From contig NZ_CP086615.1 in NCBI RefSeq assembly GCF_020883455.1, positions 2,480,001-2,544,000 on the forward strand: a stretch of DNA of 64,000 nucleotides, read 5' to 3'. This document shows, one piece after another, positions 9,348-31,228 of the stretch. This DNA comes from Spiribacter halobius. Its GTDB lineage: Bacteria > Pseudomonadota > Gammaproteobacteria > Nitrococcales > Nitrococcaceae. The first letter of the stretch is position 1; every line of letters starts with the position of its first letter. The translations under genes were made by a program, and so were the position numbers. The notes below the pieces were generated by a model, which was not told the origin of the DNA, ran no database searches, and worked only from the letters and a program-made list of their open reading frames with translations.

Positions 9348-9359
9348 TTCCGGTACCGG

Positions 9360-11971: not shown

Positions 11972-11983
11972 CCGGGGCCAGCG

Positions 11984-12013: not shown

Positions 12014-12020
12014 CAGGGGC

Positions 12021-12479
12021 TCAGGGCCCGAGCTCGAGGAGCTCGGGCCGGGCGAGGCGGGCGTAGTCATCCCAGTCCAGGACCATCACCTCCGTGGCGC
12101 TGCCGGCGTTGAAGGCAATACGCTCCTGCTCTGCCAGCTCGTCGCTGCACAGCGTGCGCAGGCCGAACAGCCCTCCGAAGGGTGGCATGGCCCCCAGATC
12201 GCAGTCCGGGAAGCTGCCGCGGAACTCGGCCTCCGTGGCCAGACGTGGCGTAGCGTCGAGGGCCGAGGCCAGCGCCTCCAGCGGCACCTGGCGCATGACC
12301 GGCAGCACCATCAGGAGCAGCTCCCGGTCCAGGGAGAGCACGACGGTCTTGGCGAAGCAACGCCCCGGAATGCGCGTCAACTCCGCCACTTCGGCCGCCG
12401 TGGCCGCCGGGGGATGCTGGATCACCAGGTAGCCCACGCCCGCCTGGTTGAGGAACTGCCGCAGGCTCTGAGCGGGCAT
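12021..12479 (-). CDS. YbaK/EbsC-family aminoacyl-tRNA deacylase
   Basis: The 152-residue protein fits the YbaK/ProX editing family in length and pattern: HPPAATAAEVAELTRIP near the start, then the lysine-containing FAKTVVLSLDRELLLMVLP, and DLGAMPPFGGLFGL with the conserved Gly-x-x-x-Pro-x-Gly loop. These enzymes hydrolyse mischarged tRNAs in trans. The exact specificity (Cys-tRNAPro, Ala-tRNAPro or other) cannot be decided. Start ATG 12479; the open upstream frame is not family-like. Confidence 0.82.
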   Translation of the reverse strand: MPAQSLRQFLNQAGVGYLVIQHPPAATAAEVAELTRIPGRCFAKTVVLSLDRELLLMVLPVMRQVPLEALASALDATPRLATEAEFRGSFPDCDLGAMPPFGGLFGLRTLCSDELAEQERIAFNAGSATEVMVLDWDDYARLARPELLELGP

Positions 12480-12561
12480 GCCGGGCCCCCCGGGCGATGG
12501 CAGGGACCCGTAGACTAACGCGCCGGGGGCCGGCCGGATAGGCCTTTTGGGGCTCTTCGGC

Positions 12562-13539: not shown

Positions 13540-13924
13540 GCAGCCAGCGAGTATAGCCCGTCCGACCTGTCGCCCGATATCGGGGGTGCGGTGGATGGCG
13601 ACCGGGCCCGGGGCGTTTGTCCACAGTTCCTGTGGATAAGTATGTGGACGAAGCGGGCGCCGCGCGCCCAAGTGCCTAATGTGCGGGGCCTTCTGTTGGA
13701 TCGGCGGAACTTTATCCATCTCTATAAACTGCCGTTTATACAGGTGGTTACGAGTTCTTTCTGAGACATCGCAGCGTCATTATCCGCCAACTCGTATCCC
13801 GCGGTGCGCCATACATTCCCTGTGTAAAAAGCGGGCCGCGGGCGCACTGGCGTCCCGCCGGTCCGGACGAGTAAGCTCCGCACACCGCTGCATTGCCCGC
13901 CGTCCGAAACCGTGAGGTGTGCCC
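13540..13924. promoter_or_regulatory. Divergent intergenic region with DnaA-box pair
   Basis: This 385-bp stretch between divergent dusB and the 2-hydroxyacid dehydrogenase gene has no gene. It contains an inverted pair of DnaA-box-like 9-mers: TTGTCCACA at 13617-13625 (one mismatch) and TGTGGATAA at 13631-13639 (a perfect box on the minus strand), five bases apart. About 85 bases on is an AT-rich palindrome, TATAAAC-TGCC-GTTTATA (13723-13740). A good site is also GTGAGG just before ATG 13925. The region probably holds both divergent promoters. Confidence 0.6.
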
Positions 13925-14893
13925 ATGAGCCGTGCCGTATTCCTGGATCGCGATTCCCTCGACATCGGCGATCTCGACATGCAGGCCCTGGACGAGGCCA
14001 CGGGAGGGTTGCAGAGCTGGGGCGCCACCCGCCCCGAGCAGGTCCGTGAGCGGATCGGCGACGCCGAATGCGTGATCGTCAACAAAGTCGTGCTGGATGC
14101 CGAGCTGCTGGGTGACTGCCCGGCGCTGCGTCTGATCTGCGTGGTGGCCACGGGCACCAACAACATCGATCTGGAGGCCGCCCGCGCGCACGGGATAACG
14201 GTCGTGAACTGCCGCGGCTACGGCACCGCATCGCTCAGCCAGCACGTGCTGACCCTTATCCTGGCGCTGACGCGCAACCTCCTGCCCTTTGTCGAGGCGG
14301 TGCGTGATGGCCGCTGGCAGGCGGCGGAGCAGTTCTGCCTGCTGGACTATCCCATCGGTGAGCTGGAGGGGCGGACGCTGCTCATCGTCGGGCACGGGGA
14401 GCTGGGCGGCGCGGTCGCGCGTCTCGGTGAGCTCCTCGGCATGCACGTGCAGATCGCGGAGCGCCCGGGCGTGCGGCAGGCGCGCCCCGGCCGCGTTCTG
14501 CTGGCGGACGCGCTGCCCGCCGCGGACGTGATCTCGCTGCACTGCCCGCTCACCGAGGAGACGCGCAACCTCATCGACGCCGATGCTCTGGCGCGGATGA
14601 AGCCCACCGCGCTGCTGATCAACACCGCCCGCGGCGGCATCGTGGACGAGGCGGCCCTGGCCGACGCCCTGCGCCAGGGCCAGATCGCCGGCGCGGGGGT
14701 GGACGTGCTCAGCAGCGAGCCCCCGCGGGACGGCAACCCGCTGCTCGCTCCCGACATCCCCAATCTGCTGGTGACGCCGCACTGCGCCTGGGGGAGCCGC
14801 ACGGCCCGCCAGCGCGTCGTGGACCAGACCGTGGAGAACATCCAGGCCTGGCGCCGGGGCGAGCCGGTGCGGGTGGTCGCAGGCGGGGCATGA
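13925..14893 (+). CDS. D-2-hydroxyacid dehydrogenase
   Basis: The ~322-residue NAD(P)-dependent oxidoreductase has a Rossmann glycine motif (VGHGELGGAVARLGELLGM) in the middle and the family's catalytic residues: Arg in NTARGGIVDE, Glu in DVLSSEPP, His in TPHCAW. VATGTNNIDLEAA and NCRGYGTASLSQHV are also typical. The best match is to glycerate/hydroxypyruvate reductase-like enzymes; substrate is not certain. ATG 13925 is preferred over GTG 13919. Its stop overlaps the next start (ATGA at 14890), so it heads a coupled four-gene run. Confidence 0.9.
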   Translation: MSRAVFLDRDSLDIGDLDMQALDEATGGLQSWGATRPEQVRERIGDAECVIVNKVVLDAELLGDCPALRLICVVATGTNNIDLEAARAHGITVVNCRGYGTASLSQHVLTLILALTRNLLPFVEAVRDGRWQAAEQFCLLDYPIGELEGRTLLIVGHGELGGAVARLGELLGMHVQIAERPGVRQARPGRVLLADALPAADVISLHCPLTEETRNLIDADALARMKPTALLINTARGGIVDEAALADALRQGQIAGAGVDVLSSEPPRDGNPLLAPDIPNLLVTPHCAWGSRTARQRVVDQTVENIQAWRRGEPVRVVAGGA

Positions 14894-15651
14894 ACTGGCT
14901 GCGGCGCTGGCGGCGGCAGCGCCTGCTGCGCCGCCACGCCTTCGGCGACGCCGCCTGGGAGCGGGCCACCCACGATCTGCACGCGCTGCGGCACCTGACC
15001 CCGAGCCAGCATACAAGGTTGCGCGAGGCCGCCACCCTGATTGCCGCGGAGAAGGACTTCCTGCAACCGGGCGGCGCGCCGTTGCCGGAGGCGCAGATCG
15101 CCCGCGTCGCCGCACTTGCCGCGCTGCCGGTGCTGGAGCTCGGGCTGGACTGGTATCGCGGCTGGCATTCGGTGATCGTCTACCCCACGGGTTTCGTCGC
15201 CCGGCACACCGTCGAGGACGAGGCCGGCGTGGTGCACGAGGTCCGGGAGGACCTGAGCGGCGAGGCCTGGGACGCGGGTCCGGTGATCCTCGCCTGGGAG
15301 GACGTCCTCGACGCCGGTGCCGCGGACGGCTACAACGTGGTGCTGCACGAGTTCGCGCACAAGCTGGACATGGCCAATGGCGAGGCCAACGGCATGCCAC
15401 CGCTGCACCGGGGCATGTCGCGGGCGGCGTGGACGGCGGCCTTCACCGCCGCCTGGGAAGACCTGCAGCGCCGCGCCGACGCCGGGCTGCCGCTGGTGGT
15501 GGACGCCTACGCCCTGGAGGCGCCGGAGGAGTGCTTCGCGGTAATGACCGAGGCCTTCTTCGAGCGACCGCAGGCACTCGCCGAGGCCTATCCGGCGGTC
15601 TACCGCCAGCTGGTCGCATTCTATCGCCAGGATCCGGGAGGGCGCACATGA
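14890..15651 (+). CDS. mtfA: MtfA-family (M90) zinc metallopeptidase
   Basis: The 253-residue protein carries the zinc site HEFAH at residues 153-157 (NVVLHEFAHKLDMANG) and the downstream acidic helix ECFAVMTEAFFE that supplies the third ligand. Length and pattern fit MtfA, a cytosolic peptidase that in E. coli binds the repressor Mlc and so affects glucose PTS control. The start overlaps the upstream dehydrogenase stop (ATGA) and its own stop overlaps the SDR start (ATGA at 15648). Confidence 0.9.
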   Translation: MNWLRRWRRQRLLRRHAFGDAAWERATHDLHALRHLTPSQHTRLREAATLIAAEKDFLQPGGAPLPEAQIARVAALAALPVLELGLDWYRGWHSVIVYPTGFVARHTVEDEAGVVHEVREDLSGEAWDAGPVILAWEDVLDAGAADGYNVVLHEFAHKLDMANGEANGMPPLHRGMSRAAWTAAFTAAWEDLQRRADAGLPLVVDAYALEAPEECFAVMTEAFFERPQALAEAYPAVYRQLVAFYRQDPGGRT

Positions 15652-16397
15652 CGGGAAACGAGCTGCATGTGGTTACCGGCGCGGGCAGCGGCATCGGCCG
15701 TGCGCTCGCCCGGGCACTGGCCGAGGCGGGCCATGCGGTGGTCGCCGTGGGCCGGCGCGAGGCGCCGCTCCGGGAGACCGCGGCCGGGCTCGAGACCATC
15801 CGCCCATTGCCGGCGGACGTCGCCAGCGAGGCCGGGCGCGCGCGCATCGCCGAGGCCGTCGGTGGGGCACGCCTGCGCTGGCTCGTGCACAACGCCGGGG
15901 TGCTTGAGCCCGTGGGCCCGCTACTGGAGGCGGAACCGGAGGCACTGCGCTATGCCCTCGCGGTGAATGTGGAGGCACCGATCCATCTCACCCGTGCCTT
16001 GCGCCCCGCGCTCGCCGGGGGCAGTCGCGTGCTGCATGTCTCGTCGGGAGCCGCGCACCGCCCGGTACCGGGCTGGGGTGCCTACTGCCTCGGCAAGGCG
16101 GCGCTGCACATGGCCTACCAGGTGCTGCGCGAGGAGCTGCGGCCCGAGGGTATCGCCGTCGGCAGCGTGCGGCCCGGGGTGGTGGACACGCCCATGCAGA
16201 CGCTGATCCGCAGCCAGCCGGAGAGCGCCTTTCCGGCGGTGGAGCGGTTCCGCGCCCTGAAGGCCCGCGGGGAGCTGGAGCCGCCGGAACGGGTTGCGCG
16301 CTTCATCCTGGCGCTGCTGGAGCTGCAGGATGTCGAGCGTTTCGGCGCCGCGGAGTGGGACATTCGCGAACACGCGGCGAGCCTCGGCATCGCGTGA
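15648..16397 (+). CDS. SDR-family NAD(P)-dependent oxidoreductase
   Basis: The 249-residue protein is a classical short-chain dehydrogenase: TGAGSGIG cofactor motif at residues 10-17, HNAGVLEP near 82, catalytic Ser in HVSSGAAH and the YxxxK pair in AYCLGKAA, then RPGVVDTPMQ. The substrate is unknown. ATG 15648 overlaps the mtfA stop. Its TGA (16395-16397) overlaps a GTG at 16394, the likely start of the next gene. Confidence 0.88.
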   Translation: MTGNELHVVTGAGSGIGRALARALAEAGHAVVAVGRREAPLRETAAGLETIRPLPADVASEAGRARIAEAVGGARLRWLVHNAGVLEPVGPLLEAEPEALRYALAVNVEAPIHLTRALRPALAGGSRVLHVSSGAAHRPVPGWGAYCLGKAALHMAYQVLREELRPEGIAVGSVRPGVVDTPMQTLIRSQPESAFPAVERFRALKARGELEPPERVARFILALLELQDVERFGAAEWDIREHAASLGIA

Positions 16398-17323
16398 CCT
16401 GGCGAGCGTCCGGGCCGAGGGCAACGCCGGACTGCCCCCCAGATCCGCGCCCGCAGCCGCGTGCCGGTGAGATCCACCGGCTGCACCTGCGCGGCCTCGC
16501 GCTCAGGCTCCGGCGCTGGGGCGGGGCGGCGGGCACGCCGGTGGTCATGCTTCACGGCTGGATGGACTGCGGCGCGACGTTTGCCCCCGTCGCGGAGGCG
16601 CTCGCCCCGCGCGCCGTGATCGCCCCTGACTGGCGAGGATTCGGCGAGAGCGACCCGACGCCCGGCGATACCTACTGGATTCCCGATTACCTAGCCGATC
16701 TGGACGCGCTGCTACATCGCCTCTCGCCGGAGACCCCCGTGGATCTGGTGGGGCACAGCCTTGGCGGCAACGTCGCTGGGCTTTACGCCGGCGTGCGTCC
16801 CGAGCGGGTCCGACGGCTGGTGGTGGTGGAGGGCTTCGGCCTCCCGGAGCCCTCGCCGGAGCAGGCGCCCCTGCGCTACCGCGAATGGCTCGACAGCCTC
16901 GCCGAACCGCCGGCGCCGCGAACCTACCCGGATCTCGCCGGGCTGGCCCGGCGCATTGCCCGGACGCATCCCGGCATCAGTGAGGAGCGCGCGCGGGAGG
17001 TTGCGGAGCTCTGGAGCTATGCCGAGCAGGATGGGGCAGGGCGGCGCCTGCGCGCAGACCCGGCGCACTGGCGTCCGCTGCCGACGCTCTATCGCCTCGA
17101 GGAGACACTCGCCTGCTGGCGCCGCATCCGCGCGCCGGTGCTCTGGCTCTACGGCGGCCGCTCCGCCTACGCCCGGCGCCTGCGCGCCGCCGCGGACTGG
17201 CCCCGGCGCTGCGAGGCCATTCGGGATCTGCGCCAGGCGCAGATCCCCACCTCCGGGCATGCACCCCATCTGAGCCATCCGCTCGAGCTCGCCGCGCATC
17301 TGCGCCGGTTTCTGGATGCCTGA
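16394..17323 (+). CDS. Alpha/beta hydrolase
   Basis: This is an alpha/beta hydrolase fold enzyme with HGWMDCGATF (oxyanion region), DWRGFGES, the nucleophile elbow GHSLGGN and a C-terminal His in SGHAPHLSHP. Substrate unknown. There is no ATG before the conserved part; GTG 16394, overlapping the SDR stop as GTGA, is the best start. The first ~28 codons are then encoded by a copy of the palindromic repeat family, and family homology starts only at about GEIHRLHLRG. Either the repeat now codes for an odd N-terminus or translation starts at a weak internal codon. Confidence 0.82.
   Translation: MTWRASGPRATPDCPPDPRPQPRAGEIHRLHLRGLALRLRRWGGAAGTPVVMLHGWMDCGATFAPVAEALAPRAVIAPDWRGFGESDPTPGDTYWIPDYLADLDALLHRLSPETPVDLVGHSLGGNVAGLYAGVRPERVRRLVVVEGFGLPEPSPEQAPLRYREWLDSLAEPPAPRTYPDLAGLARRIARTHPGISEERAREVAELWSYAEQDGAGRRLRADPAHWRPLPTLYRLEETLACWRRIRAPVLWLYGGRSAYARRLRAAADWPRRCEAIRDLRQAQIPTSGHAPHLSHPLELAAHLRRFLDA
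16403..16475. repeat. Repeat copy D, inside a coding start
   Basis: These 73 bases align without gaps to 22548-22620 (about 60 identities counted by eye). The shared parts include CCGGGCCGAG, CCGGACTGCC, CGCGCCCGCAGC and CGGTGAGA. The left arm seen in copies A and B is missing. The repeat falls across the start of the alpha/beta hydrolase gene. Confidence 0.75.
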
Positions 17324-17450
17324 CCTGCGCGTCTCGCCACCGGGCCATCACTGGGCGTAGTCTGACGGCACCTGCAGTGCCTGCCGATCCGCGACCGACG
17401 CCATGGATCGGCGGGCCATGCGGTCTGGTCCGGCAGGCGAGGGCGTAGCC

Positions 17451-17870
17451 ATGGGTGAAGTCCATCCGGCGCCGATAGTCGTGCTCCTGCGCGCGCCCGC
17501 CGACGGCGAGCTCGCGGAGGTGATGGAGGCCCTGTTCGCCTACAGTCTGCAGCGGGCCTTCGAGTGCCTGGAGCGAACCGGTCAGCCCGCGGTGCGACGG
17601 GCGATTACCCATCGGGTCATCGGACCGCTGCAGGAGGGCTTCGCCGACCTGCGCGAGGCACGGGCCCGACCCGCCAGGCTGGTACTCCCGCAGACCACGG
17701 TGCACCTCGCCGAGCGGCAGCTGGCGGCACTGTGCGCCGCTGCGGAGCGGAGGGATTTCCGCGCGGATACGGTTCCGGAGTGCCTGCAGCAGCCAGCGCA
17801 GGCTGCCGCCAAGCTGGCGCGGGCGCTGGGCCGGCTGGAGCCGGCCGAGGTCGAGGCGGCCGACGGTTAG
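17451..17870 (+). CDS. Hypothetical protein
   Basis: A 139-residue protein I do not recognise. It is mainly helical and rich in Ala, Arg and Glu, with no signal peptide, membrane segment or known motif. An in-frame ATG at 17403 would add 16 residues, but 17451 has a better upstream GGCGAGGG. Codon use looks like its neighbours, so I think it is real. It lies between the alpha/beta hydrolase and the hybrid kinase on the same strand. Confidence 0.55.
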   Translation: MGEVHPAPIVVLLRAPADGELAEVMEALFAYSLQRAFECLERTGQPAVRRAITHRVIGPLQEGFADLREARARPARLVLPQTTVHLAERQLAALCAAAERRDFRADTVPECLQQPAQAAAKLARALGRLEPAEVEAADG

Positions 17871-18029
17871 GAGTCTGCGCCCCGGCGCTGTGACGTGCAT
17901 CCCGGCGGCCCGAGCGGCGGCCTGGTAGTCTTCACCACGCTTTGCAGGGCCGTGGCGCGAGGCGGCGGGCGGGCTGCCGAAATGCGCGACTCACGCCGCC
18001 ACATCTTTCCCAGTCGGGTGGAGGTCTCC

Positions 18030-21000
18030 TTGGTCGACTCGGCGAACCAGCCGGGGCGGCTGTCGCTGCTTTCCGATGATGCGGGTACCGCGAGGTTCGC
18101 GCGGTGTTTGCGTGCGGCCGGGCACGAGGTGGTCGAGGCGGGCATGGCCGGCGAGCCGCCGTCGCCCGCTGCCGAGCTCGTGCTGCTCCTGCCGCACGAT
18201 GCCGATGCGGAGTGCGTGCGGCAGCACATCCCCAGGCCCGGTCAGTCCGTGCTCTGTTTGCTGCCGGAAGGGGCCAGCGGCGAGCGCTTTGCCGATCTGC
18301 TCGACGCCGGTGCCGATGGCTGCCTGGTGCGCCCCGTGGCGGAGCGGCAGCTCGTGGCCTGGGTGAATGCGGGGCTTCGCGCGCACCGCGTCAACCGGGA
18401 GCTGCGCGACGGCGAGCACCGCTACCGCACCGCGATCAAGGCCACGTCCGCCTTTACCTGGCGCCTGGACGCGGAGGGCAGCCTGATCGAGATTGACGAG
18501 GCCTGGCTCGAACTGGCCGGGCTCAGTCGCGAGCAGGCCCTAGGCTGGGGCTGGCTTGCCGCTCTCCATCCTGCCGACCGCGAGCCCTATCGCAGGGCCT
18601 GGGAGGAGACCCAGGCCACCGGCGCGCCGTTTCGGCACGAGTATCGGCTCCTGAGCGCGGACGGCGGCGTGCGCTGGTTCGTCGACCGTCTCGCACCGAT
18701 GCGAGGCGAGGGCGATACCGTGACCGAGTGGCTGGGCGTTGCCCAGGAGGTCACTGCCCGCCGGCGCGCAGAGGATGAGGCGCGGGCCCGCGTGCGCCAG
18801 CAGGCCGCCGTGGCCCGGCTCGGCCAGGTTGCGCTTGCGGGCAGCGCACCGGCGCAGCTGTTCGATGATGCCTGCCAGGCGGTCGCCGACGGGCTGCCCA
18901 TGGCGTACGCGAAGGTCCTCGAGTGTCTCCCCGGGGGCGGCCGGCTGCGCCTTGTGGCCGGAGTCGGATGGCGCGCGGGCCTCGTCGGCGCCGCCGAGGT
19001 CGGCACCGACGAGGACTCCCAGGCGGGGTACACGCTACGCGTCGGCGGCCCGGTGATCGTGCGCGACCTCGCCAGCGAATCCCGCTTTCGCGGCCCGCCG
19101 CTGCTGGTGGAGCACGGGGTGGTGAGCGGGCTGAGCGTCGTTATTCGCGGCGCCGACGGTCCGTGGGGGGTGCTGGGCGCCCACACCGCGGAGCCCCGGG
19201 AGTTCAGCGAGGACGACGTTCACTTCCTGGAGGGCATCGCCAACGTTCTGTCCGTGACCGTACGGCGGCACCAGATGAACGCGGAGCTTGCCGAGAATCA
19301 GCGGCTGATGGCCATCGCGAGCCGAGCGGCCCGCCTCGGTGGCTGGGCCGTGCACCTCGAAGAGCGGCGTGTACGGTGGTCGGACGAAGTCGCGGCCATC
19401 CACGGTCAGCCGCCGGGCACCGCTCCCGATCTCGATGAGGCCATCGGCTATTACGCGCCCGAGTATCGTGCCCGCATCCGCCACTGCTTCGAGGCCTGCG
19501 CCAGCGAAGGCGTTCCGTTCGATGAGGAGCTCGAGATCATCGACGCCAGGGGACACCGGCGCTGGGTGCGGGCCCTCGGCGAGCCGGTGCGGGACGGGCG
19601 CGGGGCGATCACCCGGGTCGAGGGCGCCTTCCAGGACCTCACCGAGCACAAGCGGGCGGAGGCGGAGCTGCATCGGCTCGGCGAGCGGCTGCGCAGCACC
19701 CTGGAGAGCATTACTGACGCCTTTTTCGTCCTCGACCGGGACTGGCGCTTTGCCTACGTCAACCGGGAAGCGGAGCGGCTGCTGGCGCGCAGCCGCGACG
19801 AGCTCCTGGGGCGCAACGTCTGGACAGAGTTCCCCGCGGCCGTGGGCAGCGAGTTCCAGCGCAGCTACGAGCGGGCGGTGCAAGAGCAGGTCGCGGTGGA
19901 GCTGGAGGAGCAGTACGGGCCGCTGGAGCGCTGGTTCGCCGTCCGCGCCTATCCGACGGAGGAGGGTCTCGCGGTCTATTTCCGGGACGTCACCGAGCGG
20001 CGGGTGCTGGACGAGCGACTTCAGCAGGCCCAGCGGCTGGAATCGGTCGGTCAGCTGACCGGCGGCGTCGCCCACGACTTCAACAACCTGCTGACCGTGA
20101 TCCTGGGCAATGCCGAGGCGCTGAACGAGGCGCTGGCCGCGGACCGGTCGCTGCAGCCGATGGCGGACATGGTGAGGGACGCCGCCGAGCGCGGCGCAGA
20201 GCTCGTGCGCAGCCTGCTCGCCTTCGCCCGCCGGCAGCCGCTGCAGCCGGAGCGGGTCGCCGTCGGCCCTTGCCTGGAGGCGCTCGGGCCGCTGCTGCGC
20301 CAGGCGCTGAGCGAGGAGGTGGCGTTGCGGATCGAGGCGGCCGAGCCGCTGCCCCCCGCCTACGTCGACCCCGCACCGCTTGAGGCGGCCGTCCTCAACC
20401 TCGTGATCAATGCGCGGGACGCAATCCCCGGCGCGGGCCAGGTCACCATCGAGGCCTCTGCGGTGACGCTCGACCGCGACTACGCCGCTGTCCAGGGTGA
20501 CGTGCGCCCGGGCCGCTATCTGCTGATCGCGGTGTCGGACACCGGTGGCGGCATAGGGCCCGAGCATCTGCAGCGTGTCTTTGAGCCGTTCTTCTCCACC
20601 AAGGGCAAGGACCAGGGCAGCGGTCTCGGGCTGAGCATGGTGCACGGCTTCGTGAAGCAGTCCGGCGGGCATGTTGCCATCTACTCGGAGCTCGGCTACG
20701 GCACAACGGTGCGGGTCTACCTGCCGGTGGCAGAGAGCGCGCAGGAGGCGGCGGCCATGCCCGCCGCGCCGGCGCCCGTGGAGCCGGCCAGTGGCGAGAT
20801 CGTGCTGCTCGTGGAAGACGACGCTCTGGTGCGTGAGCACGTCGAGAATGTGCTCCGTGGTCTGGGCTACGACGTCCGCACCGCCGCCGATGGAGCCGAG
20901 GCGCTGGCGACGCTCCAGCGCGAGCCGGCCGTGGATCTGCTGTTCACCGATGTGGTGATGCCGGGTGGTCTGTCCGGGCCGGAGCTTGCCCGCGCCGTCC

Positions 21001-21185
21001 GCGAGCGGCGCCCCGAGCTGCCGGTGCTCTTCACCTCCGGCTACACCCAGCAGGCGGTGATGCGCGACGGGCGTCTTGAATCCGGAGTGCGGATGCTGCA
21101 GAAGCCCTACCGCCGGGCCGAGCTCGCCGCCAAGCTGCGCGAAGCGCTCGGCCGGACTCACCCGGCGGAACGCCGCCGGGACTGA
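18030..21185 (+). CDS. Hybrid sensor histidine kinase with PAS/GAF and receiver
   Basis: From TTG 18030 (GGAGG five bases upstream) the protein has 1051 residues. Order: a receiver-like domain without a phosphoacceptor Asp (about 8-115), PAS (133-245), GAF (260-410), PAS (430-540), PAS (550-665), HisKA with the phospho-His in GGVAHDFNNLL (about 681), HATPase with NLVINARDAI (790) and DTGGGIG (835), and a C-terminal receiver with Asp near 973 (LLFTDVVMP) and Lys in LQKPY. It has no membrane segment, so it is a soluble sensor. GTG 17895 and ATG 17982 are alternative starts. No response-regulator gene is adjacent. Confidence 0.88.
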   Translation: MVDSANQPGRLSLLSDDAGTARFARCLRAAGHEVVEAGMAGEPPSPAAELVLLLPHDADAECVRQHIPRPGQSVLCLLPEGASGERFADLLDAGADGCLVRPVAERQLVAWVNAGLRAHRVNRELRDGEHRYRTAIKATSAFTWRLDAEGSLIEIDEAWLELAGLSREQALGWGWLAALHPADREPYRRAWEETQATGAPFRHEYRLLSADGGVRWFVDRLAPMRGEGDTVTEWLGVAQEVTARRRAEDEARARVRQQAAVARLGQVALAGSAPAQLFDDACQAVADGLPMAYAKVLECLPGGGRLRLVAGVGWRAGLVGAAEVGTDEDSQAGYTLRVGGPVIVRDLASESRFRGPPLLVEHGVVSGLSVVIRGADGPWGVLGAHTAEPREFSEDDVHFLEGIANVLSVTVRRHQMNAELAENQRLMAIASRAARLGGWAVHLEERRVRWSDEVAAIHGQPPGTAPDLDEAIGYYAPEYRARIRHCFEACASEGVPFDEELEIIDARGHRRWVRALGEPVRDGRGAITRVEGAFQDLTEHKRAEAELHRLGERLRSTLESITDAFFVLDRDWRFAYVNREAERLLARSRDELLGRNVWTEFPAAVGSEFQRSYERAVQEQVAVELEEQYGPLERWFAVRAYPTEEGLAVYFRDVTERRVLDERLQQAQRLESVGQLTGGVAHDFNNLLTVILGNAEALNEALAADRSLQPMADMVRDAAERGAELVRSLLAFARRQPLQPERVAVGPCLEALGPLLRQALSEEVALRIEAAEPLPPAYVDPAPLEAAVLNLVINARDAIPGAGQVTIEASAVTLDRDYAAVQGDVRPGRYLLIAVSDTGGGIGPEHLQRVFEPFFSTKGKDQGSGLGLSMVHGFVKQSGGHVAIYSELGYGTTVRVYLPVAESAQEAAAMPAAPAPVEPASGEIVLLVEDDALVREHVENVLRGLGYDVRTAADGAEALATLQREPAVDLLFTDVVMPGGLSGPELARAVRERRPELPVLFTSGYTQQAVMRDGRLESGVRMLQKPYRRAELAAKLREALGRTHPAERRRD
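21161..21180. terminator. Hairpin at the 3' end of the kinase gene
   Basis: CCCGGCGG, a four-base loop and CCGCCGGG form a perfect 8-bp stem ending just before the kinase stop codon. No T run follows. A role in ending or stabilising the transcript is inferred. Confidence 0.35.
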
Positions 21186-21277
21186 CTGTCCGCAACGCGG
21201 CGGCACCACGTAGACTGCCGGCACGAGAGCACGGCCCGGCGGCCAACATGACAACTCAGCGACTGGAGAGACAGGCA

Positions 21278-22381
21278 ATGCGTGAATACAGACTGGCCGC
21301 GATTCCCGGCGACGGGATCGGTACCGAGGTCATCGCCGCGGGGCTGGAGGTGCTGGACCTCGTCTCCGCCCTCGATGGCGGCTTCCGCTTCGAGGCCGAG
21401 CATCTCCCGTGGAGCTCGGAGTATTACCTGAAGCACGGGTACTACATTCCCGCGGGCGGGGTGGACTATCTCAAGGGCTTCGACGCCATCTTCTTCGGCG
21501 CTGTCGGCAGTCAGCAGGTGCCGGACCACGTCTCGCTCTGGGGCCTGCGCCTGCCCATCGCCCAGGGGCTCGACCAGTACGCCAACGTCCGGCCCGCCCG
21601 TGTGCTGCCCGGCGTGGGCAGCCCGCTGAAGCGCAGCGAGGGCGTGGACTGGGTGATCATCCGCGAGAACTCCGAGGGCGAGTACGCCGGCAATGGCGGA
21701 CGCACGCATCAGGGTTTTCCCCATGAGGTGGGCACCGAAACCGCCGTATTCACCCGGGCCGGGGTCGAGCGCATCCACCGCTTCGCCTTCGAGCTCGCCC
21801 GTACCCGCGAGCGCAAGCACCTCACGCTGGTCACCAAATCCAACGCCCAGCGCTACGGCATGGTGCTCTGGGACGAGGTCTTCGCCGAGGTCGCGGGGGA
21901 CTACCCGGACGTCACCACGGACCGCGAGCTCGTGGACGCAGTGACCACCCGCATGGTGGCGAAGCCGCAGAGCCTGGACGTGCTCGTCGCCACCAATCTG
22001 CACGCCGACATCCTCTCCGATCTGGCCGCCGCACTGTCCGGCAGCCTGGGCATTGCGCCTACCGCCAACCTCAATCCCGAGCGGCAGTTCCCGTCCATGT
22101 TCGAGCCGATCCACGGCTCGGCCTTCGACATCGCCGGCAAGGGGCTCGCCAACCCGGTGGCGACGTTCTGGACGGCCGTGATGATGCTGGAGCACCTCGG
22201 CGAGGACGCGGCCGCGACGCGCCTCATGGCCGCCATAGAGTCCGTTACCGCCGCCGGCGTGCTGACCGGAGACCTGGGCGGCACTGCGACCACCGCAGAG
22301 GTGACCCAGGCCGTGTGCGAGCGGCTGCGCGCCGCGTACGGTGCCACCGAAGAAGCGGACGCCCAGCGCAGCGCCTCCTGA
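21278..22381 (+). CDS. Tartrate/D-malate dehydrogenase (IPMDH family)
   Basis: The 367-residue enzyme belongs to the isocitrate/isopropylmalate dehydrogenase family: AIPGDGIGTEV, YANVRPARVLPG, the catalytic stretch IRENSEGEYAGNGG, TKSNAQRYGM and the metal-binding LHADILSDLAAAL, then FEPIHGSAFDIAGKG. The WGLRLPIAQGLDQYANVRP motif is typical of the tartrate dehydrogenase / D-malate dehydrogenase (TtuC/DmlA) branch rather than LeuB. It oxidises and decarboxylates D-malate or tartrate with NAD. ATG 21278 has GGAGAG upstream; ATG 21248 is possible but less likely. Confidence 0.88.
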   Translation: MREYRLAAIPGDGIGTEVIAAGLEVLDLVSALDGGFRFEAEHLPWSSEYYLKHGYYIPAGGVDYLKGFDAIFFGAVGSQQVPDHVSLWGLRLPIAQGLDQYANVRPARVLPGVGSPLKRSEGVDWVIIRENSEGEYAGNGGRTHQGFPHEVGTETAVFTRAGVERIHRFAFELARTRERKHLTLVTKSNAQRYGMVLWDEVFAEVAGDYPDVTTDRELVDAVTTRMVAKPQSLDVLVATNLHADILSDLAAALSGSLGIAPTANLNPERQFPSMFEPIHGSAFDIAGKGLANPVATFWTAVMMLEHLGEDAAATRLMAAIESVTAAGVLTGDLGGTATTAEVTQAVCERLRAAYGATEEADAQRSAS

Positions 22382-22475
22382 CGCGCAAGGCGAGGGCGGG
22401 CCGGCGGCCATCCCCGGACCGCTGGCCCGCGTCCGGACCGCGATCGATTCCGAGGCTCCAGCGGCAGCCTGAGCG

Positions 22476-22626
22476 GTAGCCCGCGTGTCTCACCGGCTCG
22501 CGAACCGAGGGCGCGGAGATGCCGGGCAGGCGTACTCGACGGTAAGCCGAGCGCCCGGGCCGAGCGCAACACCGGACTGCCCGCGAGATTCGCGCCCGCA
22601 GCGGCGAATCGGTGAGACATGAAGGC
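22476..22626. repeat. Expanded palindromic repeat, copy E
   Basis: The left arm (GTAGCCCGCGTGTCTCACCGG, 22476-22496 region) and right arm (GGCGAATCGGTGAGACAT, to 22620) match the A/B repeat family, but here about 100 bases separate them. The insert plus right arm (22548-22620) is the same 73-bp unit found at 16403-16475. It follows the dehydrogenase gene and marks the last copy before the mobile island. Confidence 0.75.
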
Positions 22627-23035
22627 TTACTCGGCAACCGCGGCCGCGCAGCACGAAGGCGAAGACCCGCCAGCCTATGAATTCCGGATGACGACGTCGC
22701 GGCGGGCGTCCGAACGCCATGCCCGAAGCCGCTTCGTCGCACCTGGACGGCATTTAACATAATATGTATTACACGCACTCATGCCACTGCGGTTGGGCTA
22801 GCTTCTCAGCCAACGGTGCTTGACTGTTGGGGAAACTGGGGACACAACTAAAGATTCGAACGTCCCGCAACAGATGGTTCTAACTAGCAACTAAAACTTC
22901 TAACTTGTCTCATAAAAACACGAGATCATTAAAATTAAATACCAAGACAACAACCAAACCTTACAAGTGTGTGCTTTGGGAACCAACCAAGCGGCATGGC
23001 TACGTCAATAGTTTCAGTGTAGCCTCCCTGTCCGC
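22627..23035. other. AT-rich left flank of transposition island
   Basis: No gene. Base composition drops sharply from about 22750. Two imperfect 17-bp direct repeats, CAACTAAAGATTCGAAC (22845-22861) and CAACTAAAACTTCTAAC (22888-22904), lie 43 bp apart (14 of 17 identical), and TTCTAACT occurs twice 20 bp apart. They may be transposase-binding sites at the left end of the element coded by the next four genes. I could not find a matching right end. Confidence 0.45.
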
Positions 23036-23986
23036 TCAATTCACATCGAGGTAAGTGGCCTCCACAAGGGCATCAACCAAATCCTGCGGCAGCTGCAGGT
23101 CGTCCGTATCCAAAAAGCTCAGCTGATTAAGTAGCTCCCGACAGAATGGCATGAACGCCCCCATTCCAACCTGTAGTCGCCCGCGTTTGCCGTCCCCCAA
23201 ACCGTAATAATGACGGAATCGATCCCAGACTCTTGATGCATGTGTACGCAGGCGCCATCCGGCAGCATAGGCGGCCGGGACGTGCGCCTGCGTAACCGTT
23301 GCGCCTTCGACGTTGGCGTGCTCTTCGGAGTCATCCATCACACGGAAAACCGCTTCCACGTCCTGTATGTCGCGTATACCCCGGAAGGCGTGTATGCGCT
23401 GCATAAATCTTCCGACGATCTGATACTGCTTCAGTTCGATGTAGGCTGCGCGTGCGCCGAGCAACTCCGGCTGGCCGAAAAGGAGTGTCGTCAACTGAAC
23501 TGCTCGGCGATCGAGCCGATTGTGGATGTCCATCAGCCAATGGTACGTGCGCTCGGTCAGCCATTGCGCGTCGTCGACTATGAGCACGACACGGTCAGCT
23601 TCATGCTCCTGTGCCGCGAGTGCGATGAACTCGATGAGGCGCTCTTCCTTGATATTGGCTCTCCCCTTGGTACTCAGAAAGTGTCCGATATCGGTGAGAA
23701 ATCGCTGGAGAAAGACGTTTTTTGTCGGGAAAGCTTCCGCGGGGCACTGAAACGTATATACCGGGACTCGATGGTCATACTCGCGCTCAAGTAATGGAAC
23801 GATGATGCGAATGGCGGACGTCTTTCCAATCCTCGGTGGTGCGTAAATGACTCCACCTGGCTGATCAAGCGTCATCCACGTCAGGATGGCATTCAGAGCC
23901 TCCTCGATTGGCAGAGTGGGCATCCCATAGCTGGGTTTCTGAAAGGGGTGGACAATACATCGAGTACCGGAACTGCCCATCAGCAT
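23036..23986 (-). CDS. AAA ATPase, TnsC/TniB-like transposition protein
   Basis: The 316-residue protein has a Walker A motif APPRIGKT (49-56; the usual first Gly is Ala) and Walker B VVLIVDD (133-139), then RLDRRAVQLTTLLFGQPEL, a sensor-like stretch typical of TniB/TnsC ATPases. These proteins form filaments on target DNA and activate the DDE transposase. It starts 6 bp after the transposase stop on the same strand, so the genes are cotranscribed. Nothing like TniQ/TnsD, the usual target selector, follows it. Confidence 0.82.
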   Translation of the reverse strand: MLMGSSGTRCIVHPFQKPSYGMPTLPIEEALNAILTWMTLDQPGGVIYAPPRIGKTSAIRIIVPLLEREYDHRVPVYTFQCPAEAFPTKNVFLQRFLTDIGHFLSTKGRANIKEERLIEFIALAAQEHEADRVVLIVDDAQWLTERTYHWLMDIHNRLDRRAVQLTTLLFGQPELLGARAAYIELKQYQIVGRFMQRIHAFRGIRDIQDVEAVFRVMDDSEEHANVEGATVTQAHVPAAYAAGWRLRTHASRVWDRFRHYYGLGDGKRGRLQVGMGAFMPFCRELLNQLSFLDTDDLQLPQDLVDALVEATYLDVN

Positions 23987-23992
23987 CTCGGC

Positions 23993-25960
23993 TCACTTTT
24001 TGATGATAGAGGTCCATGGGCGAAGGGGCCGGACAGGAGACCTGGCGTCCGCGGTCCCCCGATGATTGCTGTTATGGGGCGCGGGCATCGATGTGGCGTC
24101 GGCATATTCGGTTTGACCCGCGTCCCCGTATTCGCTCTGCGTCGACACTTGCCTGGAAGAGAACCTTGGGCCACTCATTTCGCGAGCAATTTCAATAACG
24201 TGGTTAGCGTTCTTGCCAGTATCCAGCGTTTTGCGACCGAGGTGTTCGAGATAGCGTTGAACCGGATCGTCATGCGCTCCAACCCGCAGCTTCGCCTGTC
24301 GGCACGCGCCCGCAATCGCCTTGCGCGTCCGCAATGAGTGTGGTGTAAGCCCCCAACCGCCCTCCGCTTGGAGGCGGCCAATATAGGCCCCTGTACGCCC
24401 GAAATAAACGTCGACAAATCGCACATCGTCCGTATCTACCGCGAGGCGAACCTTCTCTCCAATTAGACTTGGAATTGCTTTCAGGTAAGGACTGCTGTAA
24501 TCAGCATAGGCGTAGCGGATATAGGGCCGGTTGGAGTTCTTGTCGCGTGCGCGTATGGTGGCATTCACCCACTGACGCGTGAGGCGAAACGTTTCGATAC
24601 CTTGACTTGACAGGCGACGGATCATGGGGCCAAGTTGGCGCTCGGAATTCCGCATGTATTCGAGAGGCGACTGTCCATTTACTGAATTGGCCCTTGCATT
24701 GTAATTGGCGAGGATGACGTCGATCAGGTCTTCGATGTGCGCTAGGTCAACACCATGGGTCAGCGCCGCGTTCTGGTCGTCCGTCCGTCGTGGATCACTC
24801 GGACCACTGCCGGTAGTTGTCGGCAAGCGGTGAATTTGGCTGGCGAACGTCCTGAATAGACGCTCGACGTCATTGCGGACTTCAGGAACCCCAGGCGGTC
24901 CGAAATGCGCTAGTGCGTGTAATTGTTTGACAATTGCGGTGACAACGGCGTGGGATCGGTGGGAGAGCGCATTGTCGAGTTGTAGAACGTCGAAGAGTGC
25001 GCCTCGGTAACCTAGGATCAGTCCGGAGGGGAACCCGGCGTCGTGCTGGTACACCACACCGGGGGCTGTCAGGCGCCGCGGCGTCCAAGGGAGAATCGCG
25101 TTACGGATAGCACTGAGGACATCATCTGCCGTGTACTCGCTATGCAGCGATAGATGATGGCCCAGCGCCGCCCGGCTGGCTGTGTCGACTACGACCAGCA
25201 GCCACAATCTGGGCAAGAGCACTCGGACCGGTACCATCCAAGGGCCGCTGATCAGCGCCGAACAGTGGGTATCTATTAGGTGCGCGTCCAGCTGGCAGAC
25301 CGCGAGGGGGCGTCTATGGGCGCGCAGGATGGCAGGCGCGCGGCCCTCGTGTTTGCCGGTCAAGGAACTGCCAGGAGGCGGAGGTGACTTGGCGTGCGGT
25401 TGATCGCGCAGCGTGTGGAGATACCGGCGCAGGGACTCACGAGCCTGACTGCGAGGGGCTAACGGATACTCGTCGTGCTTGATACCCGCCTCGCGGCAGG
25501 CAGCGAGAAACTCATTATGCAGCGCGTCCAGAGGCATTCGCCTCCCGGGACGACCGCTGATAGTGGCATGCTTGCGATACAGCTTATCGACCGTTTTCTT
25601 GATATTGGGGAAACGTCGAAACAGTTCTTGCAGTGCCCCGGACCCGGGGTGGATTGGGCTCGCGACGCTGCGCCGTTGCCGATATGGCTTCACACGGGTT
25701 CCCGGGATCAACGCGCGGAAGCCATATAGTGAGTGGTCGGGGTGCCTGGTGAGGCAGCGCCCTATTAGCCGGATGACCTCGGGTGCCAGGATCCCGGTGT
25801 CGCGAGCGATGATCGGGGCCGGTACGTTGTTCCAGTAATCCAGTACAGCCCTTCTCCGCCTGCGATAGAGGTCGCGGTTTGTCGGCTCCAATGCGGCCTC
25901 GTACGTCTGGCCACGCTGCCGGGTCCAATTCCTCCGGTGCCAGGTCACCGACGACCTCAC
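23993..25960 (-). CDS. DDE transposase, TnsB/TniA-like
   Basis: The 655-residue protein has an N-terminal helical DNA-binding region, an RNase-H-like integrase core and a C-terminal beta-barrel region (IRYAYADYSSPYLKAIPS onward), as in TnsB, TniA and MuA. Likely catalytic residues are Asp225 (CQLDAH), Asp329 (LQLDNALSH) and Glu366 (RNDVERLFR), with D-E spacing of 37. It cuts the element's 3' ends and joins them to target DNA. Translation starts at GTG 25960, overlapping the stop of the TnsA-like gene as GTGA. Confidence 0.85.
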   Translation of the reverse strand: MRSSVTWHRRNWTRQRGQTYEAALEPTNRDLYRRRRRAVLDYWNNVPAPIIARDTGILAPEVIRLIGRCLTRHPDHSLYGFRALIPGTRVKPYRQRRSVASPIHPGSGALQELFRRFPNIKKTVDKLYRKHATISGRPGRRMPLDALHNEFLAACREAGIKHDEYPLAPRSQARESLRRYLHTLRDQPHAKSPPPPGSSLTGKHEGRAPAILRAHRRPLAVCQLDAHLIDTHCSALISGPWMVPVRVLLPRLWLLVVVDTASRAALGHHLSLHSEYTADDVLSAIRNAILPWTPRRLTAPGVVYQHDAGFPSGLILGYRGALFDVLQLDNALSHRSHAVVTAIVKQLHALAHFGPPGVPEVRNDVERLFRTFASQIHRLPTTTGSGPSDPRRTDDQNAALTHGVDLAHIEDLIDVILANYNARANSVNGQSPLEYMRNSERQLGPMIRRLSSQGIETFRLTRQWVNATIRARDKNSNRPYIRYAYADYSSPYLKAIPSLIGEKVRLAVDTDDVRFVDVYFGRTGAYIGRLQAEGGWGLTPHSLRTRKAIAGACRQAKLRVGAHDDPVQRYLEHLGRKTLDTGKNANHVIEIAREMSGPRFSSRQVSTQSEYGDAGQTEYADATSMPAPHNSNHRGTADARSPVRPLRPWTSIIKK

Positions 25961-26664
25961 TCAGCCGCCGGCGAGTCACAACCCGTTCTCCTTATCTTAA
26001 GCGCGCGCCCGATCGGGGCCTTGTCGAGATCGGCCACCGCAGCTCCGCGGTACATGAGTGCCGCTGCGGCACTCAGCACCTCACCCGAGTCCGTGTCGGC
26101 GAACAGGCCCAACAGTTCATCGAGTGTGATCGCGTCCTCGACCCGCAGCGATGTCAGGACCTCATCCTCCAGCGTCGCCCGACCCTCGGCCTGCGCTTGA
26201 GCGACGAGCGGATGTAGCTGCATCAGGTTCTCAAGACGCTGCCGATTGGGGGCCAGCGTTCGGGAAGTTACGAGCTCGACCCCACAGCCATGGTGCCGTG
26301 CCCACGTCTCGACCGCGGGCCAGTGCGCAGGGGCGCGCGATGGGGTATCGAGCTCCTTGATCTCTTTGTCCGTCGCAACATCCCAGAAACACTCGCTGCC
26401 GCCGACGGCCCGTGTCCAAAGGGCGAGCTGACGGGTCCGACCCTGCGCGAGTGGCACCACACCGCTGTCCGGGTCCTCGCAGAGGGCCTCAATCTGGGGG
26501 TCCCACTCCTTGAGTAGCCACCACTGATAGCGTGCGGCGGAGTAGAGCCGGCACACCCGGCCGCTCTTCACGCTCCAAGCGATGTATTCATCACGGCCTG
26601 CACCGTAAGAAGCTGGGCGCTTGGTGGGTGAAGGGGCATGCAGCGTTTCGCGCACGAACCGCAT
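25957..26664 (-). CDS. TnsA-like protein with lost nuclease residues
   Basis: The 235-residue protein has the layout of TnsA heteromeric transposase subunits: LYSAARYQWWLLKEWDPQI lines up with the TnsA segment that normally reads S-L-x-E...LEFDP, and a later WARHHGCGVELVTSRTLAP matches the family's third block. The catalytic Glu, Asp and Lys (normally in LE, YTPDF and EVK) appear replaced (YSA, ALW, DVAT). If so, it cannot cut the 5' strands. It sits 3 bp after the tyrosine recombinase gene and overlaps the transposase start. Assignment is by pattern and position, not by close similarity. Confidence 0.6.
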   Translation of the reverse strand: MRFVRETLHAPSPTKRPASYGAGRDEYIAWSVKSGRVCRLYSAARYQWWLLKEWDPQIEALCEDPDSGVVPLAQGRTRQLALWTRAVGGSECFWDVATDKEIKELDTPSRAPAHWPAVETWARHHGCGVELVTSRTLAPNRQRLENLMQLHPLVAQAQAEGRATLEDEVLTSLRVEDAITLDELLGLFADTDSGEVLSAAAALMYRGAAVADLDKAPIGRALKIRRTGCDSPAAE

Positions 26665-26667
26665 GCG

Positions 26668-27729
26668 TCATGTCCTCCCGGGCGGCGTCTTTGCCGCACG
26701 CTCGAGCATGCGCGAGACAAACTGAGGTCGATCCGGTAACCCTCGGATATAACTCTGGAATACGTTGTGACTGCGATGGCGGGAGCGCTCCTGGACCTCG
26801 GCCGGTATCTCGCCGGCCGCGATCGTGTCGATGATCAGACCCGCGCGGAAGCTGTGCGAGCTGAAGGCCCCCGCCCCCGGGACGCCAGCGGCCAGCAGGC
26901 GATCGCGCAGAATCACGCTCAGGCTGTCGTCGTGCAGGCACTCCGCGCCGACGTTGCCCCAGCGGTCGACGCGCCGGAAAACAGGGCCGTCATGAATGGC
27001 CGCGGCTTGGAGCCACGCCTCGAGCGCTGCCACCGCGCAGGGCGCGGCATCGATCCGAGGGATCCCGAGATAGGTACCCCGCCCCTCGGGGTCGGTCTTG
27101 GAGGTGTCGATGCGCACGGACAGGCCGTCCGCGTCGAAGTGCAGATCGTCGAGGCGCAGGCGGGTGAGCTCCGAGCGGCGCGTGCCGAGGGTCCAGGCGA
27201 GGAGCACCAGGGCCCGATCGCGCACGTCTCGCAGCTCGCCCCCGAGTGCGGCGAGCAGCTGCGCGATGTGGCCGTGGCGAAGGGGCTGTGCCTGACGTGT
27301 GCGCCAGCGTGCCCGCGCCTCCGGCGTGGCCTCGCGGCCCTGGGTGCGCGCGATGCCCCGCAGCACGCGCCGTACCGCCGGGCTGTGGCCTGGCGGCGGG
27401 CAGTCCGCGAGCGCGTTCCAGCTGTTCACCGCGGCGACGCGGCGGCGCAGCGTTGCCATCCGCAGCGCAGGGGCGCACTCGGCGAGGTAGGCGGCGAGCT
27501 GCTCGGGCGGTGTGCCCGGCGCCTCCTGATCGGGGAGCCACCGCGGCGCACCCTCCCACTCGGGCAGGAATCCGCCGTGGGCCACGAAGTCTCTAAGATC
27601 GGCGGCGTAGGCGCGCCGGGTGTTCGCCGCCATGGCGTGGTCGCGGTAGTGCGCCACCGGCGTCTCGTCGGCCGCCACAGCCAGCTCACCGCGCGCCGAG
27701 GAGCGCGAATCGCCGCTCGCGTCGCTCAC
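26668..27729 (-). CDS. Tyrosine recombinase/site-specific integrase
   Basis: The 353-residue protein has an N-terminal SAM-like core-binding domain (about 25-130) and a catalytic domain with all expected residues: Arg184 (LGTRRSELTRL), Lys211 (SKTDPEG), His292-Arg295 (SSHSFRAG), His318 and nucleophile Tyr327 (FQSYIRG). It should carry out conservative site-specific recombination. It is the first gene of the minus-strand operon, ending 3 bp before the TnsA-like gene, so it is likely a working part of the transposition unit, perhaps a cointegrate resolvase. Confidence 0.88.
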   Translation of the reverse strand: MSDASGDSRSSARGELAVAADETPVAHYRDHAMAANTRRAYAADLRDFVAHGGFLPEWEGAPRWLPDQEAPGTPPEQLAAYLAECAPALRMATLRRRVAAVNSWNALADCPPPGHSPAVRRVLRGIARTQGREATPEARARWRTRQAQPLRHGHIAQLLAALGGELRDVRDRALVLLAWTLGTRRSELTRLRLDDLHFDADGLSVRIDTSKTDPEGRGTYLGIPRIDAAPCAVAALEAWLQAAAIHDGPVFRRVDRWGNVGAECLHDDSLSVILRDRLLAAGVPGAGAFSSHSFRAGLIIDTIAAGEIPAEVQERSRHRSHNVFQSYIRGLPDRPQFVSRMLERAAKTPPGRT

Positions 27730-27747
27730 CGCCAGGCCCCCTGCTCT

Positions 27748-27801
27748 GCCGTCGATACTGACCCCGGATAATCGTCCTTATCCGGGGTCAGTATCGACGG
27801 C
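27748..27801. repeat. Perfect 24-bp inverted repeat
   Basis: Arms 27748-27771 and 27778-27801 are perfect complements (24 bp) around the 6-base loop TCGTCC. The arm includes ATACTGACCCCGGATAA. It lies 19 bp upstream of the recombinase start codon. It could be a recombination core site, an operator or a leader hairpin. Confidence 0.9.
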
Positions 27802-28252
27802 GCCGCCACCGTGCCGTGGATGGCGGGTCGAGGGGTGAGACGGGTGCGCGGGCGCTCGGTGATCGGGGTCATCGGTGTGCTCAGCATGAGGTGGGTCTGA
27901 ACACGACCATAGCGCGCGGCCCAAGAAAGTCAATGAAGTGTGGCTCGTAAGCGCCTGATTTATTTTATTATTTATTAATGTTAATTAACCCTATCCTGTT
28001 GATTCTTCGACCATGATCGGACTCCGAAGTCACCGCGATTCGCGCCCACGCAGGCACGACCGCGCCTGGTGGATGGCGCGGCTACTGCCAGCGGGAGCCC
28101 GGCCGAGCAGTGACGCTCCGAGGGCGGTGTCGGACTTCTCGGCGACCTTGCTGAGCGCCGGTCGAAACAGCTCCTCCCGTGGCCGCTTGGATCACATAGC
28201 GGCGTTGTTTGCACTGCGGTTACCTCGGCCGACTGCAGCCAAAGCTCCTGGC
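27802..28252. other. Right flank of island, no gene
   Basis: About 450 bp without a supported gene. The segment 27957-28000 is strikingly AT-rich (ATTTATTTTATTATTTATT...TTAATTAA) in otherwise GC-rich DNA and may be a promoter region or an element end. A weak open frame from 28013 leads into the permease pseudogene, but its first ~80 codons do not resemble a protein. Confidence 0.4.
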
Positions 28253-28872
28253 ATGGAGTCTATAGAGGACCGAACACCGAAATATCAGGCCAACAGTCTC
28301 TCCCCGGCCGGCGCCGTGGCTCTGGGGACTGGTGTGATGATCCACGCCGGCATCTTCGCGCTGACCGGGCAGATGGCAGCGATGACGGGCGCCTGGTTCC
28401 CGCTGGCCTTTCGCTCCGCAGCGCTGATCGTTGCTTTCAGCGCCTACGTCTAAGTCCGGATGTCAGCCTCCTATGCCTCGGTGGGCAGTATCGCAATGTA
28501 CCTGGAGAAGGCCTACGGCTGTACCCTGCCGACGGCGCTCGACGCCCTGCTGATGTACTTCTCTAGGGTCATCGCCCAGAGTTTTCTGGCGCAGACGTTC
28601 AACTCGTACACGCTCCAGCTGTCCGACATCGATGCCGCGAGCTGGCTCGTCTCCGTCCTCGGCGCGGGGCTGCTGCTCACGGCCTTGCTAATCACCCTAA
28701 CGTATCGGCAAATCGCCTGGTTGAGGGCATCGCATCGGCTCTGGGCGTCATCAAGATCGGGCGTACGGTGCTGCTTGGCGTCGTTGGCATCCTGGTGGCC
28801 GAATCGTTAGAGGTGGATTTCACCGTCGTGGCGAGTCAGGCGCCGAATCAAGACCTTCAGCTAAAGTGTTGA
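28253..28872 (+). pseudogene. Broken amino-acid permease (APC superfamily)
   Basis: From ATG 28253 the frame reads like the N-terminus of an APC-family transporter (LSPAGAVALGTGVMIHAGIFALTG, a typical first membrane helix). It is interrupted by an in-frame TAA at 28451-28453, then continues in the same frame (SASYASVGSIAMYLEKAYG, then YFSRVIAQSFLAQTF). Near 28715-28730 it shifts frame to GIASALGVIKIGRTVLLGVVGILVAES, and ends at TGA 28870, far short of a full transporter. It is thus a truncated, doubly damaged gene beside the mobile island. Confidence 0.8.
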
Positions 28873-31189: not shown

Positions 31190-31228
31190 CGCGGCCGCAT
31201 TCACCCGCCGAGGGTGAATGCGGCCGCG
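31190..31228. terminator. Attenuator-type hairpin between tctC and tctB
   Basis: Arms 31190-31206 and 31212-31228 are perfect 17-bp complements around GCCGA. A stem this strong after the binding-protein gene and before the permease genes is known from many binding-protein operons, where it protects the upstream mRNA or partly stops transcription. Confidence 0.7.

Follow-up and report, generated by a model that had tools for sequence, protein, structure and literature searches.

A Tn7-like gene unit of Spiribacter halobius that combines a TnsA-fold protein devoid of its nuclease residues with a TnpS-type tyrosine recombinase

The analyzed stretch of DNA (64,000 nucleotides of the 4.17-Mb genome of Spiribacter halobius, positions 2,480,001 to 2,544,000 of contig NZ_CP086615.1; hereafter, the window) contains, between positions 23036 and 27801, a compact unit that consists of four minus-strand genes, for a tyrosine recombinase (YR), a TnsA-like protein, a DDE transposase and an AAA ATPase, and an inverted repeat located directly 5' of the recombinase gene:

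27748-27801, no strand assigned: perfect inverted repeat (24-bp arms, 6-bp spacer) with the core GATAA-N6-TTATC, probable core site for recombination by the YR (repeat search, core counts)
26668-27729, minus strand: TnpS-type YR, 353 aa (Pfam Phage_integrase, 1.1e-8; tree, alignment, catalytic positions)
25957-26664, minus strand: TnsA-fold protein with the nuclease residues lost (R45, A81, D95, A97), 235 aa (AlphaFold2 model, matches to TnsA in PDB, family profile, catalytic columns)
23993-25960, minus strand: TnsB-like DDE transposase with D225, D329 and E366, 655 aa (rve and Mu-transpos_C below the cut-offs, 12-row alignment)
23036-23986, minus strand: TnsC/TniB-like AAA ATPase with Walker A K55 and Walker B D138/D139, 316 aa (AAA_22, 4.2e-14; family hidden Markov model)

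The successive genes are separated by 3 bp, -4 bp and 6 bp, in agreement with an earlier note on this DNA that described a packed, Tn7-like module, and all four open reading frames (ORFs) are intact; the identification of TnsA-fold, TnsB-type and TnsC-type proteins bears out that designation. The end of the module given in the note, 27801, is not the start of the recombinase gene (27729); it is the end of the inverted repeat, which the note did not mention. Above the Pfam cut-offs, only the recombinase (Phage_integrase) and the ATPase (AAA_22) are recognized in the unit. The matches of the transposase to rve and Mu-transpos_C are weak and fall under their cut-offs; its DDE triad is intact, with D225, D329 and E366 occupying invariant columns of the 12-row alignment. 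The ATPase encoded next to tnsB is of the TnsC type, by AAA_22 and the family hidden Markov model (HMM).

Relatives of the unit were reached through TnsB because a search with the TnsA query itself matched no other genome, whether among 54 from the same order or among 398 from the phylum, and nothing on plasmids. With TnsB, relatives were found in 67 plasmid records, in five other genomes out of 369 of the class (E 1e-20), in two others out of 398 of the phylum (E 1e-60) and at 77 distinct loci in genome contigs (from the best 80 of 84 matches). The 89 loci compared comprise six plasmid loci (out of the 67 records), five class loci, a distant second locus of the same genome and these 77. At 77 of the 89 loci, tnsA, tnsB and tnsC are all found in this order on one strand; at the remaining 12, several of which lie at contig ends, one of the three is undetected or fused (L083). 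Several relatives are short elements (about 5.2 kb) with sharp ends: the right end precedes tnsA by about 155-173 bp, and the distal breakpoint is past TniQ. At Burkholderiales loci, a conserved end, CGTC...AAGTAA, precedes tnsA by about 150-480 bp in the cases where it scores well.

The AlphaFold2 model of the TnsA-like protein, built from 51 sequences (the window protein and 50 relatives, part of the set in hand), has a predicted local distance difference test score (pLDDT) of 88.4. A Foldseek search started with this model retrieves, below an E-value of 0.001, Tn7 TnsA alone (1t0f and 1f1z, E 2.2e-8 to 1.2e-7, TM-score 0.49-0.55), and VIA identifies the same Tn7 TnsA and the TnsABCD transpososome with Z 12.1-12.4, the lower rows dropping to 7.7 (rows with Z under 8 were left uninterpreted). 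The TnsA family profile also matches TnsA chains in PDB by sequence (best 9.5e-16); TAL-effector chains among the matches of this profile were disregarded, no single stretch passing by itself. Judging from the predicted structure and the profile, the protein belongs to the TnsA PD-(D/E)xK fold. Because the family profile aligns to the TnsA chains, the catalytic columns of the family are fixed: R45, A81 and D95-x-A97 of the window protein occupy the positions where intact members carry E, D and E-x-K. The catalytic Glu, Asp and Lys are thus absent, as the earlier note had suspected. A Pfam search with the window protein yields no significant match (the sole row, DUF3460, has an E-value of 0.087, under the cut-off). 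The Pfam TnsA model misses all three catalytically dead TnsA tested (the window, L049 and L089); among the relatives with intact D and E-x-K, seven of eight pass the cut-off of Tn7_TnsA-like_N and one, L097, fails.

Such losses are common in this family. Among 82 other TnsA (one per locus, some partial, the window left out), E, D and K are all kept in 23, and the Lys is lost in 54, seven of which lack the Asp as well; the proteins of Firmicutes are mostly intact and those of Burkholderiales mostly dead. We found no literature report of a naturally dead TnsA retained in such Tn7-like elements; one may exist.

The recombinase, described in the earlier note as having all its catalytic residues, retains R184, K211, H292, R295, H318 and Y327, which we take to be the complete catalytic set. 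In a 65-row tree, it falls among TnpS-type recombinases (a node of eight with support 0.95), the nearest partner being a YR from Rhodanobacter (support 0.77). A Tn3-family transposase adjoins the YR at three of the five class loci that were opened (L125, L126 and L127; in the other two, L124 and L128, all but one ORF were left unscanned). Five plasmid YR loci were opened as well, with a Tn3 transposase nearby in L025 and a divergent 'DNA-binding protein' in L021, L022 and L025. In L127 and L022, the gene divergent from the YR encodes a protein with the KfrA_N domain, taken as TnpT; in L125, such a protein is encoded beside another YR. In the window, there is no divergent TnpT helper (about 350 aa), the longest plus-strand ORF within 27802-28800 being 146 aa. 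The unit encodes a tyrosine rather than a serine recombinase, and an HMM built from one TniR seed detects no serine resolvase TniR in the 18-34 kb segment of the window. Viral contigs searched with TnsB, the YR and a half of the repeat contain no relative. A different arrangement is seen in L017, L097 and L100, where a tyrosine recombinase of 245-246 aa is divergent from a tnsA with intact residues.

The 24-bp inverted repeat at 27748-27801 is the strongest short-spaced one in the 64 kb, and GATAA-N6-TTATC has one exact occurrence in the whole genome, at this repeat. Within 400 bp upstream of the gene, the exact core is present for 10 of the 24 TnpS-group YRs, which include near relatives and hence are not independent, and for 3 of the 42 other YRs; if one mismatch is allowed, these numbers rise to 13 and 6, respectively. 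Among 865 control ORFs (mechanically called ORFs of the 89 loci that are at least 250 aa long and were not classed as YR), the exact core is present for 1. This lone control (L082, 5779-6582) is cut by the contig end and, to judge from the similar locus L098, which has a YR there, is probably a truncated YR. At ten TnpS-group loci, the core is also located upstream of three divergent ORFs in the TnpT position, within the common intergenic stretch. According to the sections consulted of PMC7157771 and PMC4619425, the rst core inverted repeat of the Tn4651 type sits between tnpS and tnpT. By these comparisons of sequence and placement, the repeat is a probable core recombination site of the YR, and such a matching site beside the gene makes the resolvase role that the earlier note assigned to the recombinase plausible. 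Derivation of the palindrome from a repetitive extragenic palindromic (REP)-type repeat was considered and rejected: besides both arms, there is one half-site (3 mismatches) genome-wide, equal to the reversed control. The second strongest repeat of this kind in the window, at 31190-31228, has perfect inverted arms of 17 bp separated by 5 bp.

A related element with mapped ends is found in one strain of Robbsia andropogonis, where an 11.1-kb element is present on three plasmids in copies that are 99.96-100% identical and have different flanks. The element is bounded by TGTCAAACGAACTAAA terminal inverted repeats and contains, all inside, a TnsA with the Glu and Lys lost, tnsB, tnsC, a TniQ-like gene (found by an iterated TniQ profile and missed by Pfam), the core, and a YR of the DUF3701 type, which differs from that of the window YR. 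The 5-bp flanks are GCTGT/ACAGT in p1, ACAGT/GCTGT in p2 and CCGGG/ATTAT in p4; the swapped flanks of p1 and p2 are read as a probable trace of recombination between the Robbsia copies. In the loci L145 and L146, the element spans 11134-22242; the 390 bp to the left of the L145 element recur inverted in L146 at 9316-9705. L146 contains GATAA-N6-TTATC a second time, at 7006-7021, where the core precedes a further phage-integrase gene that belongs to the plasmid itself. In Rhodanobacter (L103), tnsA with the Lys lost, tnsB, tnsC, TniQ and a YR follow one another on one strand; no core was found upstream of this YR.

We consider, with moderate confidence, that the window contains a replicative Tn7-like unit that resolves its cointegrates with its own YR. 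This interpretation is based on the dead TnsA fold, the intact DDE triad, the complete YR with a core of the TnpS group, the Robbsia element and a published prediction: the sections consulted of Benler et al. 2021 (PMC8649781) describe Tn7-like transposons that are replicative and carry a tyrosine resolvase (tnsR), with a predicted cointegrate pathway and tnsA scored as missing, and state that mutations of the TnsA active site abolish cut-and-paste but not replicative transposition. In the scheme that we infer, TnsB would nick the 3' ends and join them to the target; TnsA, retained as a structural, non-cutting subunit, would leave the 5' strands attached; replication of the still-attached product would give a cointegrate; and the TnpS-type YR would recombine the two copies of the core site at 27748-27801, separating donor and target. 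Present-day mobility of the unit is likewise presumed.

Three further features bear on the integrity and the ends of the unit:

22837-22904, plus strand: probable left end with three TnsB-site-like 17-mers (block shuffles; terminus guessed from relatives)
26674-26679, minus strand: GGGAGG, possible ribosome-binding site of tnsA, within the last YR codons, 9 nt before the ATG at 26664 (spotted by eye)
27906-27933, minus strand: promoter-like site, oriented so as to transcribe the operon across the inverted repeat (weak; in this region 2 were found and 1.1 are expected in shuffles)

Tn7-like transposons have two ends that carry TnsB sites and are flanked by a 5-bp target duplication. The 17-mers, at 22845, 22868 and 22888, lie between tnsC and the next gene, and such a triple is reached by 0 of 300 block shuffles; the position of the left terminus itself, 22837, is a guess by analogy with the relatives. 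In the right flank of the unit, at 28013-28810, there is a permease-like frame (identified by eye) that is broken by a stop or frameshift.

Several observations weigh against a self-resolving replicative unit. No right end was recognized upstream of tnsA or of the YR, inverted matches, position weight matrices (of the family and of the left-end sites), gapped alignment and pairing of target-site duplications all giving nothing above background; a candidate near 28005 was dropped because an equal score is reached in 159 of 1160 control stretches and 180 of 500 shuffles. With 3 bp between the YR and tnsA, an end hardly fits there and would be inside or beyond the YR, or lost. TniQ was not found in window ORFs of at least 60 aa or in six-frame translation of 22300-23100, as the earlier note had also stated; unlike in the window, TniQ adjoins tnsC in 69 of the 73 testable relatives. 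The exceptions are L074, L075, L078 and L015, of which L075 and L078 carry TniQ further on, and L015, the best class match (TnsB 35%), is devoid of TniQ like the window, its contig beginning within tnsA. The unit is present in a single copy in the genome. The G+C content at third codon positions (GC3) is 0.85 in the YR gene, and 0.73, 0.66 and 0.63 in tnsA, tnsB and tnsC, respectively (two nearby genes have 0.73 and 0.88), a jump which suggests that the YR may have been recruited into the operon from elsewhere. The exact core is missing from the 400 bp searched for 14 of the 24 related YRs, and the nodes that link the group of the window YR to Tn3-linked YRs are weak (0.31 and 0.52).

The comparison with relatives weighs in the same direction. 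The earlier note made its proposal depend on conservation of the recombinase beside the transposase in other genomes, and this holds only in part: none of the 89 loci has a recombinase gene immediately preceding tnsA in the same orientation (in 11 of them, less than 1.1 kb of upstream sequence is available, too short to judge), and a YR of another type is found inside a related element. In L060, L066 and L067, the mapped end of the element leaves the upstream YR outside, so an adjoining YR proves nothing by itself. Accordingly, the upstream YRs of Burkholderiales were set aside, for several loci, as resolvases of their own elements, the breakpoints and the conserved end placing them outside. 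A dead TnsA is not significantly associated with a YR in the neighborhood (17 of 41 vs 6 of 25, p 0.19, the window excluded; 'intact' means D/E and K present, so that L004, L016 and L042, without the first Glu, count as intact), and significance is reached in none of three choices of the neighborhood (p 0.78, 0.16 and 0.19). L075 and L088, which are 99.9% identical over 4.06 kb, yet lie beside two different YRs, may have these genes as target neighborhoods; in these and other Burkholderiales, tnsABC-TniQ elements are located near DUF3701-type or related recombinase genes that lie outside, possibly a target preference.

With regard to TniQ in the rest of the genome, there are three matches, all more than 1 Mb from the unit. 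The same genome has, at C1 about 3790338-3794358 (L020, L027), a second Tn7-like set with an intact TnsA (E, D, E-x-K) and TniQ, and, at C1:4136235-4139152, two more TniQ matches, in opposite orientation and about 2 kb from each other.

The absence of a recognizable right end and the fall of GC3 from the YR to tnsABC keep as a serious, if rather unlikely, rival the explanation that a Tn7-like remnant (tnsABC and the left end, with the right end and TniQ lost) ended up, through rearrangement, after an unrelated YR gene that has a site of its own and serves a former plasmid or Tn3-type element rather than tnsABC. The missing TniQ, the single copy and a gene order seen at none of the 89 loci fit this explanation as well, but a remnant is harder to reconcile with four intact, packed ORFs, a ribosome-binding-like sequence for tnsA in the final YR codons, a left-end-like array directly after tnsC, and a related element that holds a YR and the core within its ends. 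It is quite improbable that the inverted repeat is merely a leader hairpin and the YR acts elsewhere, e.g., in plasmid dimer resolution: the repeat is indeed downstream of the weak promoter-like site, but no terminator-like site was scored at the repeat, and the core is shared by 10 of the 24 related YRs vs 1 of the 865 control ORFs. Least probable of all, by a small step, is a YR that selects targets in place of TniQ, for which the presence of a YR without TniQ and the precedent of the YR-derived TnsF of Tn6022 speak, given that TnsF, by the sections consulted of PMC10293859, lacks the chamber bearing the catalytic tyrosine and works with TniQ, and that the window YR is complete in its six residues, groups with the TnpS type and has a core site alongside.

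Beyond the interpretation of the window as a replicative, self-resolving unit, a broader proposition is put forward tentatively, as possible but short of probable: a large Tn7-like branch would keep dead TnsA as a required structural part, with YRs that resolve at a shared GATAA-N6-TTATC, and the window would be its member with the YR first and no TniQ. Evolution seems to mirror the TnsA active-site mutants, the catalytic Lys being gone in those 54 of 82 relatives and the protein kept, so that the reason for retaining a dead TnsA becomes testable. The Pfam model used in surveys misses the three dead TnsA tested; some 'tnsA-less' Tn7-like elements may keep a pseudo-TnsA. Unresolved cointegrates are a known by-product of Tn7-type integration tools; a compact recombinase-site pair would provide these tools with a defined system of resolution.

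Comparison with known systems does not uphold the suggestion of the earlier note that the gene set is an undescribed system: PMC8649781 already describes tyrosine resolvases in replicative Tn7-like elements. Like the window unit, those elements, in the sections consulted, combine Tn7-like TnsB and TnsC with a tyrosine recombinase; tnsA is scored there as missing, whereas the window keeps a catalytically dead protein of the TnsA fold and has no TniQ. The TnpS-TnpT-rst module of the Tn4651 type (Tn3 family) shares with the window a TnpS-group YR and an inverted-repeat core just upstream, a likeness of placement, but includes TnpT and a Tn3 transposase, whereas the window has no TnpT-sized ORF across the site and Tn7-like proteins instead. 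In Tn5053/Tn402 (tniA, tniB, tniQ, tniR; the Tn402 region of R751), a DDE transposase and an ATPase are likewise accompanied by a resolvase of the element's own, but this is a serine resolvase and TniQ is present, in contrast to the tyrosine recombinase, TnsA and lack of TniQ in the window. Tn6022 (TnsABC-TniQ-TnsF), as presented in the sections consulted of PMC10293859, also combines TnsABC with a YR-related protein; however, its TnsF is an inactivated YR, a comM selector working with TniQ, whereas the YR of the window is complete and TniQ is missing. The parts are known and the principle, a replicative Tn7-like element with a tyrosine resolvase, is published; the combination found here is an unusual variant.

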